This document shows, piece by piece, positions 10,222-24,499 of a DNA stretch of 57,098 bases. The first letter of the stretch is position 1. Each line of letters begins with the position of its first letter. Origin of the DNA: Nitrospira sp. SB0662_bin_26 (GTDB lineage: Bacteria > Nitrospirota > Nitrospiria > Nitrospirales > UBA8639); NCBI GenBank assembly GCA_009840285.1, contig VXOF01000081.1, positions 1 through 57,098 of the forward strand, read 5' to 3'. The notes under the pieces are model-generated. The model made no database searches. It had not been told where the DNA came from and saw only the letters and a program-made list of their open reading frames with translations. The position numbers were made by a program, and so were the translations under genes.

Positions 10222-11151
10222 TCAATCCGTGTGGACTCCCGACTTGTCATCGGGCCCGGCGCGCTCAATTTTCAAGGCTTTGTTGTTCATCAGCACTTTC
10301 GCTTTGATCCGGTCCCCATATCCGAATTCTTCCGTGATCTCGGTCTTGTGCGTGGCTTCGATTTGAATCTCGCCCCGCTCTCCCCGCACGATGTAGAAAT
10401 CCCGGTCAACGTCCAGTAGATCGCCGACAATGGTTTTGGTTTCCGGTTGCTTGGCCTGCGCCGATGGCGCGGGAGCTTGCTCCTTGTCTCCCTGTTGGGC
10501 CGCAGGGGCTTGCGCAACGACCGGAACATTTTCCGTCACCCCTGTCACGTCATCCGGCCCGGCGCGTTCGATCTTCAATGCCTTGTTGTTCATGAGCACC
10601 AAGGCCTTGATCCGATCCCCATATCCGAATTCTTCCGTGATCTCGGTTTTGCCCGTGGCTTCAATCTGAATCTCGCCCCGCTCGCCCCGCACGATGTAGA
10701 AATCCCGGTCAACGTCCAACAGGTCGCCCACAATGGTTTTGGATTCCGGTTGCTGAGGCTGCGCCGACGGCGCAGGGGCTTGCCCCTTGGCGCCCTGTTG
10801 GGCTTCAGGGGCTTGCGCGGTCACCGGCACATTTTCCGTCACTCCCGACACGTCATCGGGTCCGGCGCGCTCGATCTTCAACGCCTTGTTGTTCATGAGC
10901 ACCAGGGCCTTGATCCGATCGCCGTATTGGAATTCTTCCGTGATCTCGGTCTTGTGCGTGGCTTCGATTTGAATCTCGCCCCGCTCGCCCCGCACGATGT
11001 AGAAGTCCCGATCCACGTCCAGCAGATCGCCGATGATCGTTTTCGTGGGTTCGGTTGATCCTCCACCCTGCGCGAGGACAGACTGACCCTGGGCCAACAG
11101 GAGGATACAAACGGCACTCAGAAGTTTCCCAAGAACGACAGACCCTTTCAT
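10222..11151 (-). CDS. Secreted protein of three 101-residue tandem repeats
   Basis: An N-terminal signal peptide (MKGSVVLGKLLSAVCILLLAQG) is followed by three near-identical modules. Each begins KTI(I/V)GDLLDVDRDFY, includes GERGEIQIEA and YGDRIKA, and ends ALKIERAGPDD. Modules are joined by proline/alanine/glutamine-rich linkers (for example QAPAPSAQ). The DNA period is 303 bp: the segments starting near 10247, 10550 and 10853 are almost identical, indicating recent duplication. The module looks like a small beta-barrel (OB- or SH3-like) but I cannot name a family. It is probably periplasmic. No function is assigned. Confidence 0.75.
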   Translation of the reverse strand: MKGSVVLGKLLSAVCILLLAQGQSVLAQGGGSTEPTKTIIGDLLDVDRDFYIVRGERGEIQIEATHKTEITEEFQYGDRIKALVLMNNKALKIERAGPDDVSGVTENVPVTAQAPEAQQGAKGQAPAPSAQPQQPESKTIVGDLLDVDRDFYIVRGERGEIQIEATGKTEITEEFGYGDRIKALVLMNNKALKIERAGPDDVTGVTENVPVVAQAPAAQQGDKEQAPAPSAQAKQPETKTIVGDLLDVDRDFYIVRGERGEIQIEATHKTEITEEFGYGDRIKAKVLMNNKALKIERAGPDDKSGVHTD

Positions 11152-16657: not shown

Positions 16658-18637
16658 TCAGAAATCGATTCGCAGGCTCGTCTGGGCTCCGTACCTGAAG
16701 GAGTCGCTGGTGTCATCGCCAAGGGACGAGCCGACTCTGCCCTGCAGATTGATCGAAACACCATCCATGATCTTTTTTACGGCGCCCAATCTGGCATGGC
16801 CCCAGGTATCGCTGAACCCTGAACGAAACTCGAACCCATAGGCATTGATCGAACTGTCATCCTGGAAATCATGCGAAACGCTCAGGTCAACGTAGAGGCT
16901 CAGGCCCTGCTTCGGAAGCACCGTTCCAAACCCCAAACCCGCCGATGCTTCGAGGCTGTCGCTGTCTCCCTGGCGGACGACCACGCCATCACCGTCGGTG
17001 AAGTCGCCGAAGTCCACTTCCGTATAGACCACTTGCAAGCGAGGCGTGACTCTGAAGTCGCCGGCTTCGAATTTCAAGCCGGTCTGGAACTCCCGGCCAA
17101 CCTCGAATGAGACTCCCCATGAACGCGCGTCTATAGATTCAGAAATCCTCTGCGAGGCGAAGTCTACGTCCGCATTCCAGAAGCTGAATCGGCTCTGTGC
17201 CTCCCAGTAAAAGCCGTTCGGAGCAAATCGGGCCAATGTCAACGCGCCGCCGTAGCCGGTGGCTTCGATGTCCGATGCCGCATAGGAGCGGCCTTTCCGG
17301 ACATCCGCCGTCGTGTGCGTCGCATAGATCGAGATTCCTCCGACCGTTGGGCCGGCCGCGGGGATCGGGAAGTCATAGCCGATCTCGACCTGGCCGCGGG
17401 TCTGTCGCCACTTGCCACCGCCGAAGGGGTCGGTTGCGGCGTCCACGTTCTCGATCCGGCGGTGGCTGCCCTTGGCCCGCATCCAGACGCCCGTTGCGTC
17501 GGCATCTGGCTGCATTCGGGCCGCGCCGGATTCACCAAAGCGACGTCCCGGACGCTCCAGCGTTGCCGGAAAGTCTTCGCGCATCAGTTCCGCCAAAATC
17601 GAATACGCGTAGATCTGGCCGAACACCTCGGTGGCATTCCACAGCCTGGCACGCTGCATGAACGCGAGGGGATCGGCACGCCACTCCGCGTAGCCGATAC
17701 GCCCATCATTCGTCAGCCAGTTGAGTCTGTCGTCTACACAGGCCGCCAAGGCCTCGTCGTCCTTGTCGAAGGCAAAGCCACCGAGTTCGATCTCGGGATC
17801 AAGGGCCGTCACCACAAACGCACCGTCGGAATCCGCACTGACGTCGCGGTTGCCGATCTCACCTCTTGCCAGGGCATCGACGTCCCCGTTACGGAGCGCC
17901 TTGAATTGCTCGTTCTCGATTTCGAAATAAATGACCTCGGCCACCGTGCCCCGGGGGCCTTGAAGGCGCGACCGACCATCGAGGTTGGACGTTGCCCCGG
18001 CAGCGGTGATACGGTAACTGGAACTGCCATCGGCAGTGACCTGAGTGCCGTCCGACTTGGAGACGATCGTCCCCTGGGCCAGGGCCCCATCGGCGTTGAC
18101 GATGCCCGTCAGTTCCAGCAGCCGGTGTTCGCCGGTGGTCCCGCCGAGCACGCCGACGCGCGCGTCAGCGAGGTCGTCATGGCTTGCGAGGCGCTCGGCA
18201 TCCTCCGCGCGCACCAGTAAGGATTGGCGAAACGTGATATGTCCCGAGGTAAAGGTGATCACGGTTTCGTTGGCGTCATTGCGGGTACGCGAATCAAGAA
18301 TCGTGATGCCACCTCCCACCACATCAAAGTCCGCGCCCGCGGGCGTCAGCCAGATGCCGGGCCAGACGCCAATGCCCCTGCGCCGGAAGGACAATCCTGC
18401 GTCCTCCATAGCTTCAAGAGCAGTCAGCAGGTCCGCTTCATACCCACGGTGGCGATCAAATCCGGCCGTTCCCGGGGTGGGATTCTCGCTGTAGCTGACA
18501 GGCTTGAAATCCGAGAAGAACCCAAGCTTGAGAACGCGCTCATCCGTACAGGCCTGCCGCAGCCGGTCAACCTCCGACGCAACGGCATTCGCGGAAAAGG
18601 CCAACAGACCGAAGATGGCGCCGAGCGCAAGGAACAT
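16658..18637 (-). CDS. Family 3 solute-binding domain fused to an autotransporter beta-barrel
   Basis: The 659-residue protein starts with a signal peptide (MFLALGAIFGLLAFSANAVAS). Residues about 25-335 resemble amino-acid ABC solute-binding proteins (family 3): LKLGFFSDFKPVSY, YEADLLTALEAME, FDVVGGGITIL and VGVLGGTTGEH. The remaining 310 residues alternate polar and aromatic strands and end in SLRIDF, a terminal Phe as in autotransporter barrels. The start at 18637 is chosen because a good ribosome site (AAGGG) precedes it and the open frame upstream overlaps egtB out of phase. It begins 7 bp after the egtB stop, so the two are an operon. A binding protein anchored by its own outer-membrane barrel is unusual. 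Confidence 0.75.
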   Translation of the reverse strand: MFLALGAIFGLLAFSANAVASEVDRLRQACTDERVLKLGFFSDFKPVSYSENPTPGTAGFDRHRGYEADLLTALEAMEDAGLSFRRRGIGVWPGIWLTPAGADFDVVGGGITILDSRTRNDANETVITFTSGHITFRQSLLVRAEDAERLASHDDLADARVGVLGGTTGEHRLLELTGIVNADGALAQGTIVSKSDGTQVTADGSSSYRITAAGATSNLDGRSRLQGPRGTVAEVIYFEIENEQFKALRNGDVDALARGEIGNRDVSADSDGAFVVTALDPEIELGGFAFDKDDEALAACVDDRLNWLTNDGRIGYAEWRADPLAFMQRARLWNATEVFGQIYAYSILAELMREDFPATLERPGRRFGESGAARMQPDADATGVWMRAKGSHRRIENVDAATDPFGGGKWRQTRGQVEIGYDFPIPAAGPTVGGISIYATHTTADVRKGRSYAASDIEATGYGGALTLARFAPNGFYWEAQSRFSFWNADVDFASQRISESIDARSWGVSFEVGREFQTGLKFEAGDFRVTPRLQVVYTEVDFGDFTDGDGVVVRQGDSDSLEASAGLGFGTVLPKQGLSLYVDLSVSHDFQDDSSINAYGFEFRSGFSDTWGHARLGAVKKIMDGVSINLQGRVGSSLGDDTSDSFRYGAQTSLRIDF

Positions 18638-18644
18638 AAACCCT

Positions 18645-19853
18645 TCAGGGGTTGTTGACGCACCGGAAGCCGGCGTGCGCGTGGGGATAGCCTTGGCGAA
18701 ACCAGTTCCGGAACGAGCGGCGCAAGAGGCAAGAGGCCGTGGTGGGGGCGCCGCCTTTGACGATGAAATGGTCGTCGTCGAAGAAGCGCGCGGAATATCC
18801 GGGATAGGTAGGATAAGGCTCGAAGCCTTCGAATGGGTGAAACCGCGTCGAGGTCCATTCCCATCCGTTTCCGACCAATTGGGACACCCCGAAGGCACTG
18901 TCACCTTGCGGATTGGCCGTGACCGGGACCGGATCCCAAAACCGGAAATGAAAATTTCCGTGTGCGCCGTTGGTGATCCGGTTTCCCCAGGGATAGGCGT
19001 GCTCTTCGCCGCTTGGCGTCCCATACGCCGCGCGATGATATTGTGCTTCGGTCGGCAGTGAGAGCCCGGCCCATTGCGCATAGGCCCGCGCGTCTCGCAG
19101 GGACACATAGACGGGCCAATGCGGGGGAAGCAGAATGTCTTCGAACATCGTCGACAGGAACCAGCGTTCGCCCCGCTTGACCCAAAACGGAGGGATGGGA
19201 CCCCCCTGTTCGACGAAGGCCTGATATTGCTCGTTGGTGATCTTGTATTTGCTGATCGCAAAGGCCGGCACATCTTCTCGATGTTCGTTGAATTCATTAT
19301 CCCAGCCGAACCCGTCAGAACGGCCGAGCGTCGCCGCGCCCTGCGGAACGCCGATCATGGCGTGATCGGGTGACGGACTGTCAGGCGCCGTTGACAAAAA
19401 CGGAGTAATTTTTCCGCCGTACGCCACGTGGTGCAACAGGTAGGCCGTGGTTTCGGCGTGCATCCACCGGTGTTCAATCGCCATACGCAGGACGGTTTCC
19501 GGAGCGTCTTCCAGCGCCGCATCAACCGATTCCCTCGCCTTGACGTTGTATTGCCGGATTTCTTCGAGCGAAGGCCAATCCGAGGGCACGTCTTGCTGTT
19601 TCGAGCCTACCTCGGGATCGATGCCCGCCTCGAACAGGGAATCGAACGTGTCGTGAAAGGAAGATTGTCCCAACGTCCAGCGACAAATCTGGTTCCAATC
19701 AAACGCCTCCAAATGGCCGACGTAAAACACGACGCGATGGCGTTCCGGGATGGGACGCTCATAGAGCGTCTTCGGTTGAAACAAGGAAAAGATGTGGTCG
19801 GTGCAGGCCCGCGCCGCGGATAATTCCTTTCGTATTTCGACTAAACGCGGCAT
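18645..19853 (-). CDS. egtB: EgtB-like iron-dependent sulfoxide synthase (DinB + FGE/SUMF1 domains)
   Basis: EgtB joins hercynine with cysteine or gamma-glutamylcysteine to a sulfoxide, using oxygen and an iron centre of three histidines. The 402-residue protein has the N-terminal DinB part with YVGHLEAFDWNQI and an HRWMHAE motif (HxxxHxE), supplying the three likely iron ligands. A C-terminal FGE-sulfatase part follows (ISKYKITNEQYQAF, LPTEAQYHRAAYG, GNGWEWTS, GFRCVN). EgtD and an EgtE-like enzyme are encoded 2.5 kb away, supporting an ergothioneine role over other EgtB/SenB-type reactions. No EgtC amidase is seen, so a cysteine-using enzyme is plausible. Confidence 0.82.
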   Translation of the reverse strand: MPRLVEIRKELSAARACTDHIFSLFQPKTLYERPIPERHRVVFYVGHLEAFDWNQICRWTLGQSSFHDTFDSLFEAGIDPEVGSKQQDVPSDWPSLEEIRQYNVKARESVDAALEDAPETVLRMAIEHRWMHAETTAYLLHHVAYGGKITPFLSTAPDSPSPDHAMIGVPQGAATLGRSDGFGWDNEFNEHREDVPAFAISKYKITNEQYQAFVEQGGPIPPFWVKRGERWFLSTMFEDILLPPHWPVYVSLRDARAYAQWAGLSLPTEAQYHRAAYGTPSGEEHAYPWGNRITNGAHGNFHFRFWDPVPVTANPQGDSAFGVSQLVGNGWEWTSTRFHPFEGFEPYPTYPGYSARFFDDDHFIVKGGAPTTASCLLRRSFRNWFRQGYPHAHAGFRCVNNP

Positions 19854-20003: not shown

Positions 20004-20759
20004 ATGATGAACACACCCGTCCTGAGTGTCCGCAACGTGAGCAAGGAATTCGGCCCCGGTGTTCGAGTCCTCGAGCACGTCGATCTCGAAATCCTTGAAG
20101 GCGAAACCTTGGTCCTGATCGGGGAAAGCGGGTCCGGTAAAACGACCCTGCTCCGGCTGTTCAATGGGTTGACTCATCCCAGCTCAGGAGAGGTTTGCAT
20201 CCATGATGAACCCGTACGAGTCAAAGATCCCATCGATCTCCGTCGCCACGTCGGGTACGTGCAGCAGGACGCCGGATTGTTGCCGCATTGGACCGTCGAG
20301 GAAAACGTCGGCCTGGTGCCGCTGTTACTCGGATGGAAGGCCGAACGACGAACAAGCCGGGTGCATGAACTCCTGGACCTTGTTCAACTTGAGCCGCAAC
20401 AGTTTCGAGCGCGTTATCCCATTGAACTGTCCGGCGGGCAACGACAACGCGTGGCTTTTGCGCGAGCCCTTGCGGCCGATCCCGGGATCGTCCTCCTCGA
20501 CGAACCCTTTGGCGCGCTCGACGCGATCACCCGTCGCGAACTCCAACGCCAATTCCTGGGACTGAAACAACGTCTCAACAAGACCATGGTCATGGTCACC
20601 CACGACGTGGATGAGGCGATCCGACTCGGCGACCGCATCGCGGTGCTGAAGGAAGGTCGTCTCTTGCAGATCGGAACCCCGGCCGACCTGCTCAACGCTC
20701 CGGCCCACGACTACGTGGTGCAATTACTCCGCCATCGATCCCACGGAGAGAACGCATGA
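20004..20759 (+). CDS. ABC transporter ATPase of the betaine/ergothioneine (OpuCA/EgtV-like) type
   Basis: A 251-residue cytoplasmic ABC ATPase with Walker A GESGSGKTTL, signature LSGGQRQRVAFARAL, Walker B IVLLDEPFGALD and the switch His in MVTHDVDEA. It belongs to the OpuCA/ProV group but lacks C-terminal CBS domains. Its stop overlaps the start of the permease gene by four bases. Its position between egtB and egtD suggests that the importer handles ergothioneine or a related trimethylated compound, like EgtV of EgtUV systems. Choline or betaine import is the alternative. Confidence 0.85.
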   Translation: MMNTPVLSVRNVSKEFGPGVRVLEHVDLEILEGETLVLIGESGSGKTTLLRLFNGLTHPSSGEVCIHDEPVRVKDPIDLRRHVGYVQQDAGLLPHWTVEENVGLVPLLLGWKAERRTSRVHELLDLVQLEPQQFRARYPIELSGGQRQRVAFARALAADPGIVLLDEPFGALDAITRRELQRQFLGLKQRLNKTMVMVTHDVDEAIRLGDRIAVLKEGRLLQIGTPADLLNAPAHDYVVQLLRHRSHGENA

Positions 20760-22318
20760 CCAGACTGCTTCGTTCTCTGTGTTTGGTGGCGCTGGCCTTC
20801 TTCGTGTTGCTGCCCATGCCGGCCTTTTCTCAGGGCGAACGCATCGTCGTCGGTTCAAAAAACTTCATGGAGAGCAAACTCCTGGCTGAGATTTTCGCGC
20901 AACTCATCGAAGCCCGCACGGACCTTTCCGTGGAACGGCGATTGGGCCTGGCGGGCACGCAGGTTTGCTTCGAAGCGCTGCGTACAGGCGCTATCGACAT
21001 CTATCCCGAATACACGGGCACCGGGCTCGTCAGCATTCTTCAGCAACCGCCGACCGGAGATCCACGAAAGGCGCTCAACGCCGTGCGCGCGGAATTTCTC
21101 AAACGTTGGGATATTTGGTGGCTGAATCCGCTGGGGTTTGACAATTCCTATGCGCTTGCAGTCCCTCGCGCTCGAATAGCCGGCATTCCCCTGCGAACCA
21201 TTTCGGACCTCGCCGAAATCGCGCCCTCCCTGACTGCGGGGTTCGGGTATGAATTCATCAACCGGCCCGACGGCTTACCCGGTCTGCAAGCACGGTATGG
21301 CCTCACCTTTCCACGCGTACAGGCCATGCAACAGTCCCTGAAATACCAAGCGGCCGCTGCCGGTGAAATCGACGTGCTTGACGTGTATACAACCGACGGG
21401 CGGCTTACCGAGTATGACTTCGTGGTGCTCGAAGACGATCTCCACTTTTTCCCGCCCTATGAAGCATCCGGATTGATTCGAGGCTCCACCCTTGCGCAAC
21501 ACCCCGAGTTGGGAGGGCTCCTGGGTTTGCTGACTAACGCGTTCGACGACAAGACCATGAGGCAACTGAACTATCGCCTGCAGGAAGGCGGGGAACAGGT
21601 GGAAGTAGTGGCGCGCGATGCCCTGTCGGCCCTTCAGCTTTTTGTCACCGAAGACGCCGAGACACAGCCGGTTTCTCATCAGGAAGGGCTCTTTGCCTAT
21701 ATGTGGTCGAAGCGAACGGATCTTGGGGGGCGAATTATCGAACATCTGACCTTGGCCGGGCTGGCTTTGGGCTTGGGGATCCTGTTGGCTGTTCCCTTGG
21801 GCTTGCTGCTCGAACGTCACCAAGCCGTTGCCGAACCCGTCATCCGAGGTATCGGTCTGACGCAAACGATCCCGTCCATCGCGTTACTCGCCTTCATGAT
21901 CCCGGTGTTCGGTATCGGGATGCTGCCGGCCGTGATCGCCTTGTGGATTTATTCCCTGTTCCCGATCGTCAGGAATACCTATTCGGGCCTCCGCGATGCC
22001 GCGCCTCAGGCCGTGGACTCGGCTCGTGCCCTCGGCATGACGGAATGGCAAATCCTCCATTGGGTACGACTGCCGTTGGCCGCGCCCGTGATCATGGCCG
22101 GCGTACGCACCGCGGGGGTCATCACCGTAGGCACGACCACGCTGGCCGCATTCATCGGCGCGGGAGGCTTGGGCGTACCGATTGTCGCGGGCCTGCAAAT
22201 GGCCAACACGACCGTGATCCTTTCAGGAGCCTTACCCGCAGCCGCCCTAGCACTGGTGATCGACGGGTTCCTCAGCCGGGTGGAAACGTGGGTCAGACCG
22301 CGGGGCGTCAGCCTCTGA
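20756..22318 (+). CDS. Fused substrate-binding protein/permease of a betaine-type ABC importer (EgtU-like, reversed order)
   Basis: A 520-residue protein. It has an N-terminal signal or anchor, an OpuAC-type binding domain (about residues 28-300) with IVVGSKNFMESKLLAE and the family motif IDIYPEYTGTG, then a C-terminal permease domain of about six helices with LGIL-type transmembrane segments and an EAA-like loop (SARALGMTEWQILHWVRLP). In EgtU and OpuC-like fusions the permease usually comes first; here the order is binding domain then permease. Cotranscribed with the ATPase gene. The ligand is inferred from neighbouring ergothioneine genes. Confidence 0.85.
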   Translation: MTRLLRSLCLVALAFFVLLPMPAFSQGERIVVGSKNFMESKLLAEIFAQLIEARTDLSVERRLGLAGTQVCFEALRTGAIDIYPEYTGTGLVSILQQPPTGDPRKALNAVRAEFLKRWDIWWLNPLGFDNSYALAVPRARIAGIPLRTISDLAEIAPSLTAGFGYEFINRPDGLPGLQARYGLTFPRVQAMQQSLKYQAAAAGEIDVLDVYTTDGRLTEYDFVVLEDDLHFFPPYEASGLIRGSTLAQHPELGGLLGLLTNAFDDKTMRQLNYRLQEGGEQVEVVARDALSALQLFVTEDAETQPVSHQEGLFAYMWSKRTDLGGRIIEHLTLAGLALGLGILLAVPLGLLLERHQAVAEPVIRGIGLTQTIPSIALLAFMIPVFGIGMLPAVIALWIYSLFPIVRNTYSGLRDAAPQAVDSARALGMTEWQILHWVRLPLAAPVIMAGVRTAGVITVGTTTLAAFIGAGGLGVPIVAGLQMANTTVILSGALPAAALALVIDGFLSRVETWVRPRGVSL

Positions 22319-22417
22319 ACCTTGCATAAAAGAGAAGCGACCCGTTACAGTGCTGGCTCTACCATCCCACTCCTCTCCATGACGGTACCCGCCGGCTTTT
22401 CATCATGATGCGCGTTC

Positions 22418-23401
22418 ATGCTTAAGCAATCCAACATTACGATCGACGTGCACCTGGCCAACCAGGATCCCGATGCCGTCAAGGACGAACTTCGTTCGGG
22501 TCTGCTGTCGAAACCGCGGCGATTGCCGACGAAGTATTTTTATGATGATCACGGCTCCGCGCTCTTTGAACAGATCTGTGAAGTGCCCGAATATTACCCG
22601 ACTCGCACGGAACACCAATTGCTCAAAACCGTGGCCGATGACGTGGTGGCGCGAACCTGTGCCGAGGAATTGGTCGAATTGGGCTCCGGAGCAGCCACCA
22701 AAACTCGGGTCTTGTTGGATGCCATGGCCCGCACAAACCGGCTGCGCTTCTACGTGCCATTTGATTTCAGCGAGGGCATCGTGCGACGAGTGGCGCAAGA
22801 ACTGGTTGAGGAATACGAAGGGCTACACGTTCACGGGGTGGTTGGAGATTTCCTGGCACATTTGGAACATATTCCGCAGGGCGGCCGACGCCTGGTCGTG
22901 TTTTTGGGCGGAACCATCGGCAACTTGGGACCTGAAGCCGCTCCGGCCTTTCTATCGTCCGTCGCGCAGGAAATGGATCCAGGTGATTTTTTTCTCCTTG
23001 GTGTTCAACTCATCACTGACGTGGAGCGCCTGGAAGCCGCGTATAATGATTCGGCCGGGCTCTCGGCCGCGTTCAACAAAAACATATTGTCCGTGTTGAA
23101 GGTCGTGATTGGAGCGGAATTTGATCCTGACACCTTCGACCACGTGGCCCGATTCAATCATGACGAACAGCAAATTGAAATGTACCTTCGGTCGGTCTGC
23201 CGGCAAGTGATTCCCATTCCCGAATTGGAGTTGACCCTTCGGCTCGAAAAGGGGGAAGAAATCCTCACGGAAATAAGCAGGAAATATACGCATCATCACG
23301 TGGAGGCCCTGTTGACCCGCGCTGGATTTACCCCCATGGCCTGGTATGCTGATCCGGCCGACCTTCACGGTCTGGCCCTGGCTCAAAAGCCGTCCGGCTG
23401 A
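22418..23401 (+). CDS. egtD: L-histidine N-alpha-methyltransferase
   Basis: EgtD transfers three methyl groups from S-adenosylmethionine to histidine, giving hercynine, the first step of ergothioneine synthesis. The 327-residue protein has the family start region (LPTKYFYDDHGSALFEQICE with PEYYPTRTE), the SAM-binding LVELGSGAATKT, a VFLGGTIGN motif and the C-terminal SRKYT histidine-binding region. Length is as expected. It follows the ABC importer by 99 bp and precedes the EgtE-like gene by nine, forming the rightward arm of the locus. Confidence 0.92.
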   Translation: MLKQSNITIDVHLANQDPDAVKDELRSGLLSKPRRLPTKYFYDDHGSALFEQICEVPEYYPTRTEHQLLKTVADDVVARTCAEELVELGSGAATKTRVLLDAMARTNRLRFYVPFDFSEGIVRRVAQELVEEYEGLHVHGVVGDFLAHLEHIPQGGRRLVVFLGGTIGNLGPEAAPAFLSSVAQEMDPGDFFLLGVQLITDVERLEAAYNDSAGLSAAFNKNILSVLKVVIGAEFDPDTFDHVARFNHDEQQIEMYLRSVCRQVIPIPELELTLRLEKGEEILTEISRKYTHHHVEALLTRAGFTPMAWYADPADLHGLALAQKPSG

Positions 23402-23410
23402 CTGGCACCC

Positions 23411-24499
23411 ATGATCTATCTGAACTACGCGGCCCTGTGTCCGACTCTTGCAGAAGCTGAAGAGGAGGTCGAACGGACGCTGACCGAGTTCAAACGCTAT
23501 CTGTATTCCGAAGCGGGCATCGCGTGGTATCTCGGGAAGGTCAGTGATTGCCGGCAACAAGTCGGCGCATTGTTACACGTCAACGATTCTTCGAGCATCG
23601 CGTTCACCACGAACGCGTCCACTGCACATTATCTCTTGCTTTCTTCTTTGAAATGGGTGCCGGGCGACACCATTCTCACAACGACGCACGAAAACCCCTC
23701 CATTACGAAACAGCTTCGCGCCCGTGAACGCGAGGGGGTCCACGTTCACGCCGTCAGGCCAACGTCCATACCTTCGTTTCTGCATGCGCTGGAAGAACGG
23801 CTCGACGAACCCGGCGTCAATGCCGTCGTGATAAGCCACGTGTCGCACGTTGACGGGCGTATCTTTCCCATACAGGAAGTGGCTTCATTGGCCAGAGCAC
23901 GGCACTGTCTGGTCATCATCGACGGTGCGCAAGCCATTGGGCACATACCCGTCGATCTGAACGCGCTGGATTTCGACGCCTACTTTTTTGCCGGACACAA
24001 GTGGTGTGAAGGCCCTCTCGGCACGGGGGCGATGGTCGCGCGTGAGAGTTTTTTTACGCATCCCCGTTACCGTGAGATCGAAGGAGAACAGCCCGGTGGG
24101 TCGCCGGCCGGCTCATTTGAAATCGGCACGCACAACATCGGGCTCATTGCAGGACTCGCCAGAGCCTGCGAGCAACGACATCAACGGGGCATTGACACGG
24201 AACCACAACGGACCTTTCGAGAAACGGCCAAGGAACTGCTGGGTGGGCACCGGAATTGTCGTTTCCTGGAATGGCAGGGACCCCATGCTCCCGGCATCCT
24301 GACGTTCAAAGGCGCAGCTGACCTGGATCACGAAGCATTCGTCAAACGGCTTGCCTCCGAAGCGGGAGTTGTCGTGAAGCCTTTTGTGGACTATCCGGAA
24401 GAGGACGCACCTGCGATACGGCTGTCATGGTCTTCAACCATGGCGACGGGAGATTTTCAGAAGGGCGTTATGACGATTGCGCAGCGGCTGGATTCATAA
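23411..24499 (+). CDS. egtE: Class V aminotransferase-fold PLP enzyme, EgtE-like C-S lyase
   Basis: This 362-residue pyridoxal-phosphate enzyme of the cysteine-desulfurase-like class V group has the PLP Asp region VIIDGAQAIGH and the Schiff-base lysine in FFAGHKWCEGP. Starting directly after egtD, it most likely does the last ergothioneine step, cleaving hercynylcysteine sulfoxide to ergothioneine, pyruvate and ammonia. By sequence alone it could also be a cysteine desulfurase, but the active-site Cys loop of those enzymes is not obvious. The symbol is given on context. Confidence 0.72.
   Translation: MIYLNYAALCPTLAEAEEEVERTLTEFKRYLYSEAGIAWYLGKVSDCRQQVGALLHVNDSSSIAFTTNASTAHYLLLSSLKWVPGDTILTTTHENPSITKQLRAREREGVHVHAVRPTSIPSFLHALEERLDEPGVNAVVISHVSHVDGRIFPIQEVASLARARHCLVIIDGAQAIGHIPVDLNALDFDAYFFAGHKWCEGPLGTGAMVARESFFTHPRYREIEGEQPGGSPAGSFEIGTHNIGLIAGLARACEQRHQRGIDTEPQRTFRETAKELLGGHRNCRFLEWQGPHAPGILTFKGAADLDHEAFVKRLASEAGVVVKPFVDYPEEDAPAIRLSWSSTMATGDFQKGVMTIAQRLDS

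Follow-up and report, generated by a model that had tools for sequence, protein, structure and literature searches.

A solute-binding domain joined to an autotransporter barrel in Nitrospira sp. SB0662_bin_26 and its relatives

Introduction

In Gram-negative bacteria, solute-binding proteins (SBPs) are periplasmic and meet their ligands only past the outer membrane. Where would such a domain act, and on which ligand, if it is joined to an autotransporter barrel? This question is raised by one gene in a stretch of 57,098 nucleotides (the window), contig VXOF01000081.1 of Nitrospira sp. SB0662_bin_26 (GCA_009840285.1; 2.20 Mb in 113 contigs). The genus is probably GTDB bin75, the sponge Nitrospirales Ca. 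Nitrosymbion. In the cited passages, its members are described as mainly sponge-associated, with genomes of about 2.4 Mb and many toxin-antitoxin modules (PMC11812461). Here, we analyse the architecture, binding pocket, distribution and genomic place of the gene and weigh what its product might do.

Results

The preliminary description of this DNA proposed a family-3-like SBP domain followed by an autotransporter barrel that ends in Phe. Both domains were borne out, the barrel by PF03797 and TIGR01414 and the SBP part by profile comparison, and Phe is the last residue of the translated frame. The order in the 659-residue protein is putative signal peptide, divergent family-3 SBP domain, linker helix and 12-strand autotransporter barrel (Table 1). 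In ten pairwise comparisons of the five carriers within the genus, dN/dS was 0.17-0.27 for the whole gene (mean 0.21). The SBP part alone gave 0.14-0.37 and the barrel 0.15-0.31; both parts are under purifying selection. Since the frame 16658-18637 is kept in five genomes at this mean value and is collinear in a Gammaproteobacteria MAG, it is a real coding unit and not a chance frame. A decaying gene is ruled out by the whole-gene values, and an assembly chimera by the presence of the architecture in five genus genomes and one from another phylum.

Table 1. Positions of the gene, its parts and its neighbours in the window
Feature	Positions	Strand	Basis
SBP-autotransporter gene, 659 aa	16658..18637	-	open frame; Pfam, NCBIfam, relatives
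Putative signal peptide, residues 1-20 (about)	18578..18637	-	read by eye; compared with four sisters
SBP family-3-type domain, residues 22-334	17636..18574	-	Pfam, profile comparison, models
Lobe-2 insert, ~58 residues (about residues 175-232)	17942..18115	-	alignment
Linker helix, residues 335-355	17573..17635	-	AF2 model, low confidence
12-strand autotransporter barrel, residues 383-659, C-terminal Phe	16661..17491	-	Pfam, NCBIfam, AF2 model
Cys30, invariant in 7/7	18548..18550	-	alignment
Cys300, invariant in 7/7	17738..17740	-	alignment
Junction to egtB-like gene, 7 nt, AGGG directly after egtB stop	18638..18644	-	sequence
egtB/ovoA/senA-like gene, directly upstream (context only)	18645..19853	-	Pfam, NCBIfam
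ABC ATPase, Opu-type SBP-permease fusion, egtD, egtE-like class V aminotransferase (context)	20004..24499	+	Pfam, NCBIfam

The barrel matched Autotransporter PF03797 over residues 384-632 (E 1.1e-26; 94.6 bits, cut-off 26) and the NCBIfam barrel model TIGR01414 (E 1.4e-29; 103.4 bits, cut-off 16). A full-length AF2 model built from six sequences (mean pLDDT 38) placed a helix at residues 335-355 and twelve long strands at 383-658. The best 20 Foldseek matches of this model were all autotransporter units, with AIDA-I first (3.3e-8). In a fold comparison with VIA, the porin CymA (Z 19.7, rmsd 3.3, 263 residues) ranked level with EspP (Z 18.8, rmsd 4.1, 273 residues), and the barrel type thus rests more on sequence families than on fold. 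The gammaproteobacterial protein ends in Glu, after one additional residue. At the other end, a probable signal peptide was read by eye from its hydrophobic core and Ala-x-Ala-type end. The window copy is shorter than its sisters by about 56 nt, a loss that leaves the n-region, present in the sisters, nearly absent. A lipoprotein was considered and rejected: the Cys found in the signal region of L005-L007 is replaced by Phe in the window copy and by Tyr in L008.

The SBP domain is more divergent. It matched SBP_bac_3 (PF00497) over residues 37-314 with E 5.7e-5 and 23.3 bits, below the cut-off of 26.4, and remained below it at 25.9 bits when scanned alone; three of the six family members scanned matched at E<=0.01. 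The match is interrupted by the lobe-2 insert, for which neither EhuB nor any of five E. coli SBPs has a counterpart. When a profile of the SBP part (7 sequences) was compared with one of the five E. coli family-3 SBPs, the result was E 4.5e-6 over 208 columns, with homology running across both lobes. The E. coli SBP profile scored the SBP part at 18.3 bits, versus 8.2 for the best shuffle listed (2,000 shuffles generated, 1,036 sequences among the output listed). The nearest solved sequences were ancestral CDT proteins, namely CDT-Anc1 (2.5e-10), AncCDT-1 (2.9e-10) and the later ancestor in 5jos (9.5e-6). A separate model of the SBP part reached a mean pLDDT of 55. Its lobe 2 was well modelled and matched amino-acid SBPs (Z 11.6, rmsd 2.4, 93 residues); the underlying alignment was deepened from viral contigs with L061, L062, L063 and L107 (L061 and L107 represent one TcyJ-like locus), and because it contains a TcyJ-like row this fold match is partly built in. 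Structure prediction, which the preliminary description had named as a check, gave the barrel, at low confidence, as a helix plus 12 strands and supported lobe 2 with the reservation just named; lobe 1 stayed below pLDDT 50.

We then compared the putative pocket with LAO, whose ligand contacts we take to be R77, T121, S72, Y14, F52, D11 and D161. On the carboxylate side, R77, T121 and S72 correspond to R117, T168 and T112, all invariant in the seven family members, and R117 aligns with Arg99 of the ArgT precursor. F44 (Tyr in L016) takes the place of Y14, W92 (Phe in L016) that of F52, and F41 that of D11. The segments GGGIT and GTTGE, together with R117, T112, T168 and F41, are nearly or fully invariant across two phyla. 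Asp161, on the alpha-ammonium side, is replaced by Gly259 in all seven members; this Asp is present in the five E. coli family-3 SBPs, and the S. meliloti protein assigned by TIGR02995 to the ectoine binder EhuB has Pro there. Since the carboxylate Arg and Thr are kept and the alpha-ammonium Asp is gone, the pocket suggests a carboxylate without free alpha-amine as ligand, unless the adjacent Glu260 substitutes for the Asp. The exchange of Asp161 for Gly could also mean that ligand binding was lost. The ligand types proposed earlier fared differently under this comparison. The betaines ergothioneine and hercynine are compatible with the missing Asp, ergothioneine being possible but not favoured, and histidine itself appears less likely.

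PF00497 searches found no other match in the window genome and one (G040) across the other 13 genomes of the genus, compared to matches in 12 of the 14 control genomes. The search missed the present gene itself and may likewise have passed over further split copies. As no other family-3 SBP was seen in this genome, we consider it unlikely that the domain feeds a family-3 ABC importer.

The pair C30 and C300 comprises the sole cysteines outside the signal regions, 270 residues apart. For L009, the aligned sequence begins at an upstream start and has two additional Cys, within or ahead of the signal region.

To see how far the architecture extends, we searched for relatives of the whole protein and of its parts. 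Full-length relatives with 86-88% identity occur in Nitrospira or Nitrospirales MAGs (L005-L008). A gammaproteobacterial MAG (genome G149, locus L009) encodes a protein of the same collinear architecture with 49% identity over the full length, 62% in the SBP domain and 39% in the barrel. Within the genus, 6 of the 14 genomes matched, five of them at full length; in G082 the match was confined to the SBP part. The search for the same domain pair that the preliminary description called for thus recovered it at full length in five genus genomes and the gammaproteobacterial MAG. The whole protein was present in 5 of the 146 genomes of the window's class. Around the gammaproteobacterium, the SBP profile found none but G149 among 369 genomes of the class, 293 of the order and 398 of the phylum (overlapping sets). 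The genome contigs were scanned by six exact peptides, a procedure that detects close relatives only and therefore undercounts. Phage or plasmid cargo was rejected, since no relative of the SBP part was found in viral contigs or plasmids; in the 15 listed of 26 plasmid records matched by the whole protein, the match covered the barrel part only.

In G082, an SBP part with 55% identity to that of the window is followed by ~570 residues without meaningful match to the window barrel; within them, Pfam matched PF03797 over its first third (E 8.7e-8). The same module on an unrelated barrel indicates, at the level of sequence, that it has been shuffled between barrels. This gene lies on the 3' side of a gene whose genus orthologues often precede a GDSL-esterase autotransporter: among 11 orthologous loci, five have the GDSL gene, one has the SBP gene and five have neither in the flank examined. 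The GDSL-esterase autotransporter (L001 1435-3378) and the G082 gene (L016 8608-11547) occupy the same place beside this orthologous neighbour. Furthermore, the window SBP domain is closer to the gammaproteobacterial domain than to that of G082 from its own genus, which points to a transfer between phyla.

Within the genus, a tree of four proteins grouped all five carriers together (support 0.996). The non-carrier G033 falls within this clade, and one gain plus one loss is the simplest history. The mean dS of the gene (0.32) was similar to or below that of its neighbours (0.33-0.47). Together with the mean dN/dS, this argues for vertical descent within the clade under constraint.

The tight link to egtB noted in the preliminary description held: in all five copies an egtB-like gene lies on the same strand, its stop separated from the start of the SBP-autotransporter gene by 7 nt in the window and 9 nt in the four sisters (GTG start). 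Directly after this stop, a Shine-Dalgarno-like AGGG or AGGA is found in three of the five copies, with weaker motifs in L007 (CGGA) and L008 (CGAA). However, what had been read from this link, a ligand of the ergothioneine or histidine type, was not supported. The egtB-like gene occurs in all 14 genus genomes (77-100% identity) and the SBP-autotransporter gene beside it in five. The ABC pair and egtD adjoin the egtB-like gene in all 14, the egtE-like gene in 13 (it falls outside the L053 stretch). Between the egtB-like and SSF genes of non-carriers we identified, by eye, VapBC-like pairs in L046 (4309-5844), L047 (5809-6590), L048 (4965-5949) and L051 (5335-6510), and intervals of 133 bp in one genome and 32 bp in another; L052-L054 had no SSF gene within the stretch examined. 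A RelE-like pair was likewise seen by eye in the egtB-SSF interval of L006 (9978-10838). That is, the spot next to egtB is an accessory slot, otherwise filled by toxin-antitoxin-like pairs or almost nothing.

No egt gene adjoined the SBP module in G082 or the gammaproteobacterium within the flanking DNA examined. An EgtD-type gene was present in all three carriers searched (window genome, G082 and G149), although PF10017 matches by themselves say little, as the E. coli control also matched. The EgtD of G149 is 37% identical to that of the window and encoded on a separate contig from its SBP gene, which indicates that pathway and receptor did not travel together. The egt cluster is retained where the gene is absent, and the other SBP-barrel genes lack an egt neighbour in the DNA examined; linkage alone does not set the ligand. 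The neighbouring gene 20756-22318 encodes an Opu-type fusion with the SBP first and the permease second, and is a better candidate for ergothioneine traffic than the SBP-autotransporter gene. In EgtU the binding domain is located at residues 232-503 and hence after the permease, according to the cited section (PMC9732360).

The divergently oriented set at 20004-24499 is a candidate cluster for ergothioneine synthesis and transport that accompanies the egtB-like gene genus-wide. The egtB-like protein itself (18645-19853) scored 219 bits with the OvoA N-terminal model, 184 with SenA and 177 with EgtB, all far under the cut-offs.

Discussion

We give roughly an even chance to the reading that the protein is an autotransporter-anchored, surface-mounted ligand trap or receptor with a family-3-type SBP domain as passenger. 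It would be exported through Sec, and its barrel would be inserted in the outer membrane with helix 335-355 within the pore. The SBP domain would remain attached, be displayed outside the cell and close there on a small carboxylate without free alpha-ammonium (betaine-, ectoine- or keto-acid-like), supplied perhaps by the sponge or by neighbouring symbionts. It would serve as a surface trap or receptor and not as a family-3 ABC importer feeder. Its expression would be tied by position to the egtB-like gene, which does not oblige the ligand to be ergothioneine.

Among classical (type Va) autotransporters, those whose passenger is compact and globular, such as EstA and AaaA, likewise have a C-terminal PF03797-type barrel, a preceding helix and a single passenger, and they were matched by the structure searches. 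Their passengers are enzymes, however, whereas the window protein carries an SBP domain. Family-3 SBPs (ArgT/LAO, HisJ, GlnH, TcyJ; AncCDT-1) align with it in both lobes and have the carboxylate-side Arg and Thr in common, but lack its barrel anchor, its insert, the exchange of Asp161 for Gly and the invariant Cys pair; nor was a family-3 SBP partner system seen in the window genome. EhuB is the free periplasmic SBP of an ABC importer and differs in this respect from the barrel-fused domain studied here. It likewise lacks the alpha-ammonium Asp, with Pro in the place of Gly. The EhuB NCBIfam model matched L009 (E 5.6e-8) and the window protein (4.1e-4) weakly, and the SBP-family profile A2 did not detect EhuB. 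In MltF, a family-3-like domain likewise serves apart from ABC transport, but its partner is a lytic transglycosylase and a barrel is lacking. EgtU shares with our locus the ergothioneine context and an SBP fused to another membrane part, as far as the cited section describes it (PMC9732360). Its SBP is of Opu-type and fused to a permease, though, and the window counterpart would be the neighbour at 20756-22318; the SBP-autotransporter protein gave no PF04069 match up to E 1.

Several other readings have to be weighed against surface display. It is unlikely, on our assessment, that the SBP domain stays in the periplasm, held by the barrel on the inner side of the outer membrane, where it would sense or store a periplasmic ligand. 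The invariant Cys pair complicates secretion and is the reason why the domain may be periplasmic: large disulfide loops formed before translocation inhibit the translocation of passengers, as the cited passage reports (PMC9769942), and a C30-C300 loop, if formed that early, would be of the blocking kind. However, the same passage names disulfide-loop proteins that were translocated once fused to autotransporter barrels, C30 and C300 may pair only after export, and linker helix and barrel are of the autotransporter type, whose passengers are exported. We hold it improbable that the domain has become an adhesin or scaffold which kept the SBP shape and lost ligand binding. The Gly in place of LAO Asp161 and the absence of a partner importer in the PF00497 search would fit, but the conservation of R117, T112, T168, F41, GGGIT and GTTGE over two phyla exceeds the needs of a scaffold.

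An extracellular ergothioneine or hercynine receptor, functionally part of the egt cluster, is quite improbable. It would explain the 7-9 nt junction in the five copies, the adjacent egt enzymes and Opu-type ABC system and the EgtD-type gene of the three carriers searched, and a pocket that lacks the alpha-ammonium Asp and presents the aromatic residues F41, F44 and W92 would suit a betaine. Against it stand nine of the 14 genus genomes, which have the egtB-like gene and its neighbours without an SBP-autotransporter gene there, the use of the position as a toxin-antitoxin slot, L009 and L016 without egt neighbour in the DNA examined, and the divergent EgtD of G149 on another contig. Very improbable is a surface enzyme, in which a catalytic SBP fold, for example a dehydratase from the lineage of cyclohexadienyl dehydratase, would be displayed in the manner of EstA or AaaA. 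AncCDT-1 and AncCDT-3 are the nearest solved sequences; however, AncCDT-1 is described in the cited text as a non-catalytic arginine binder (PMC7683729), and the general acid Glu173 of PheC corresponds to Gly262, in an alignment stretch of -1.0 bits with Glu173 placed from numbering.

A bolder version of the surface reading, which we regard as rather unlikely, is a mobile receptor module: the SBP domain would have departed from ABC import, been passed between phyla inside sponges and re-mounted on available barrels, and would bind a betaine-type compound outside the cell, possibly ergothioneine or another zwitterion of the sponge pool.

If surface display is correct, an SBP on an autotransporter would bind small molecules before they cross the outer membrane, and would do so in a genome in which we saw no further SBP of family 3. 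The protein would then be a concrete candidate for the sensing or holding of host-pool metabolites by uncultured sponge nitrifiers. Because the module recurs on two different barrels and in two phyla, it is plausible that the combination has been selected for. In line with the preliminary description, which knew of no such protein, we found none described in the literature searched, which covered main texts and few subscription journals. The words 'solute' and 'SBP' are absent from the main text of a survey of 1,523 autotransporters (PMC3419190).

Two further observations concern other surface or secreted proteins. G082 contains 14 PF03797 matches, several of them in frames of 6,251-9,287 codons (G082:C1, e.g. 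665790, 1473293, 72745), so that this one genus member encodes giant surface proteins. In the window, positions 10222-11151 encode a secreted-looking protein with three near-identical ~65-residue repeats and proline/alanine/glutamine-rich linkers, whose repeat number seems variable among relatives.
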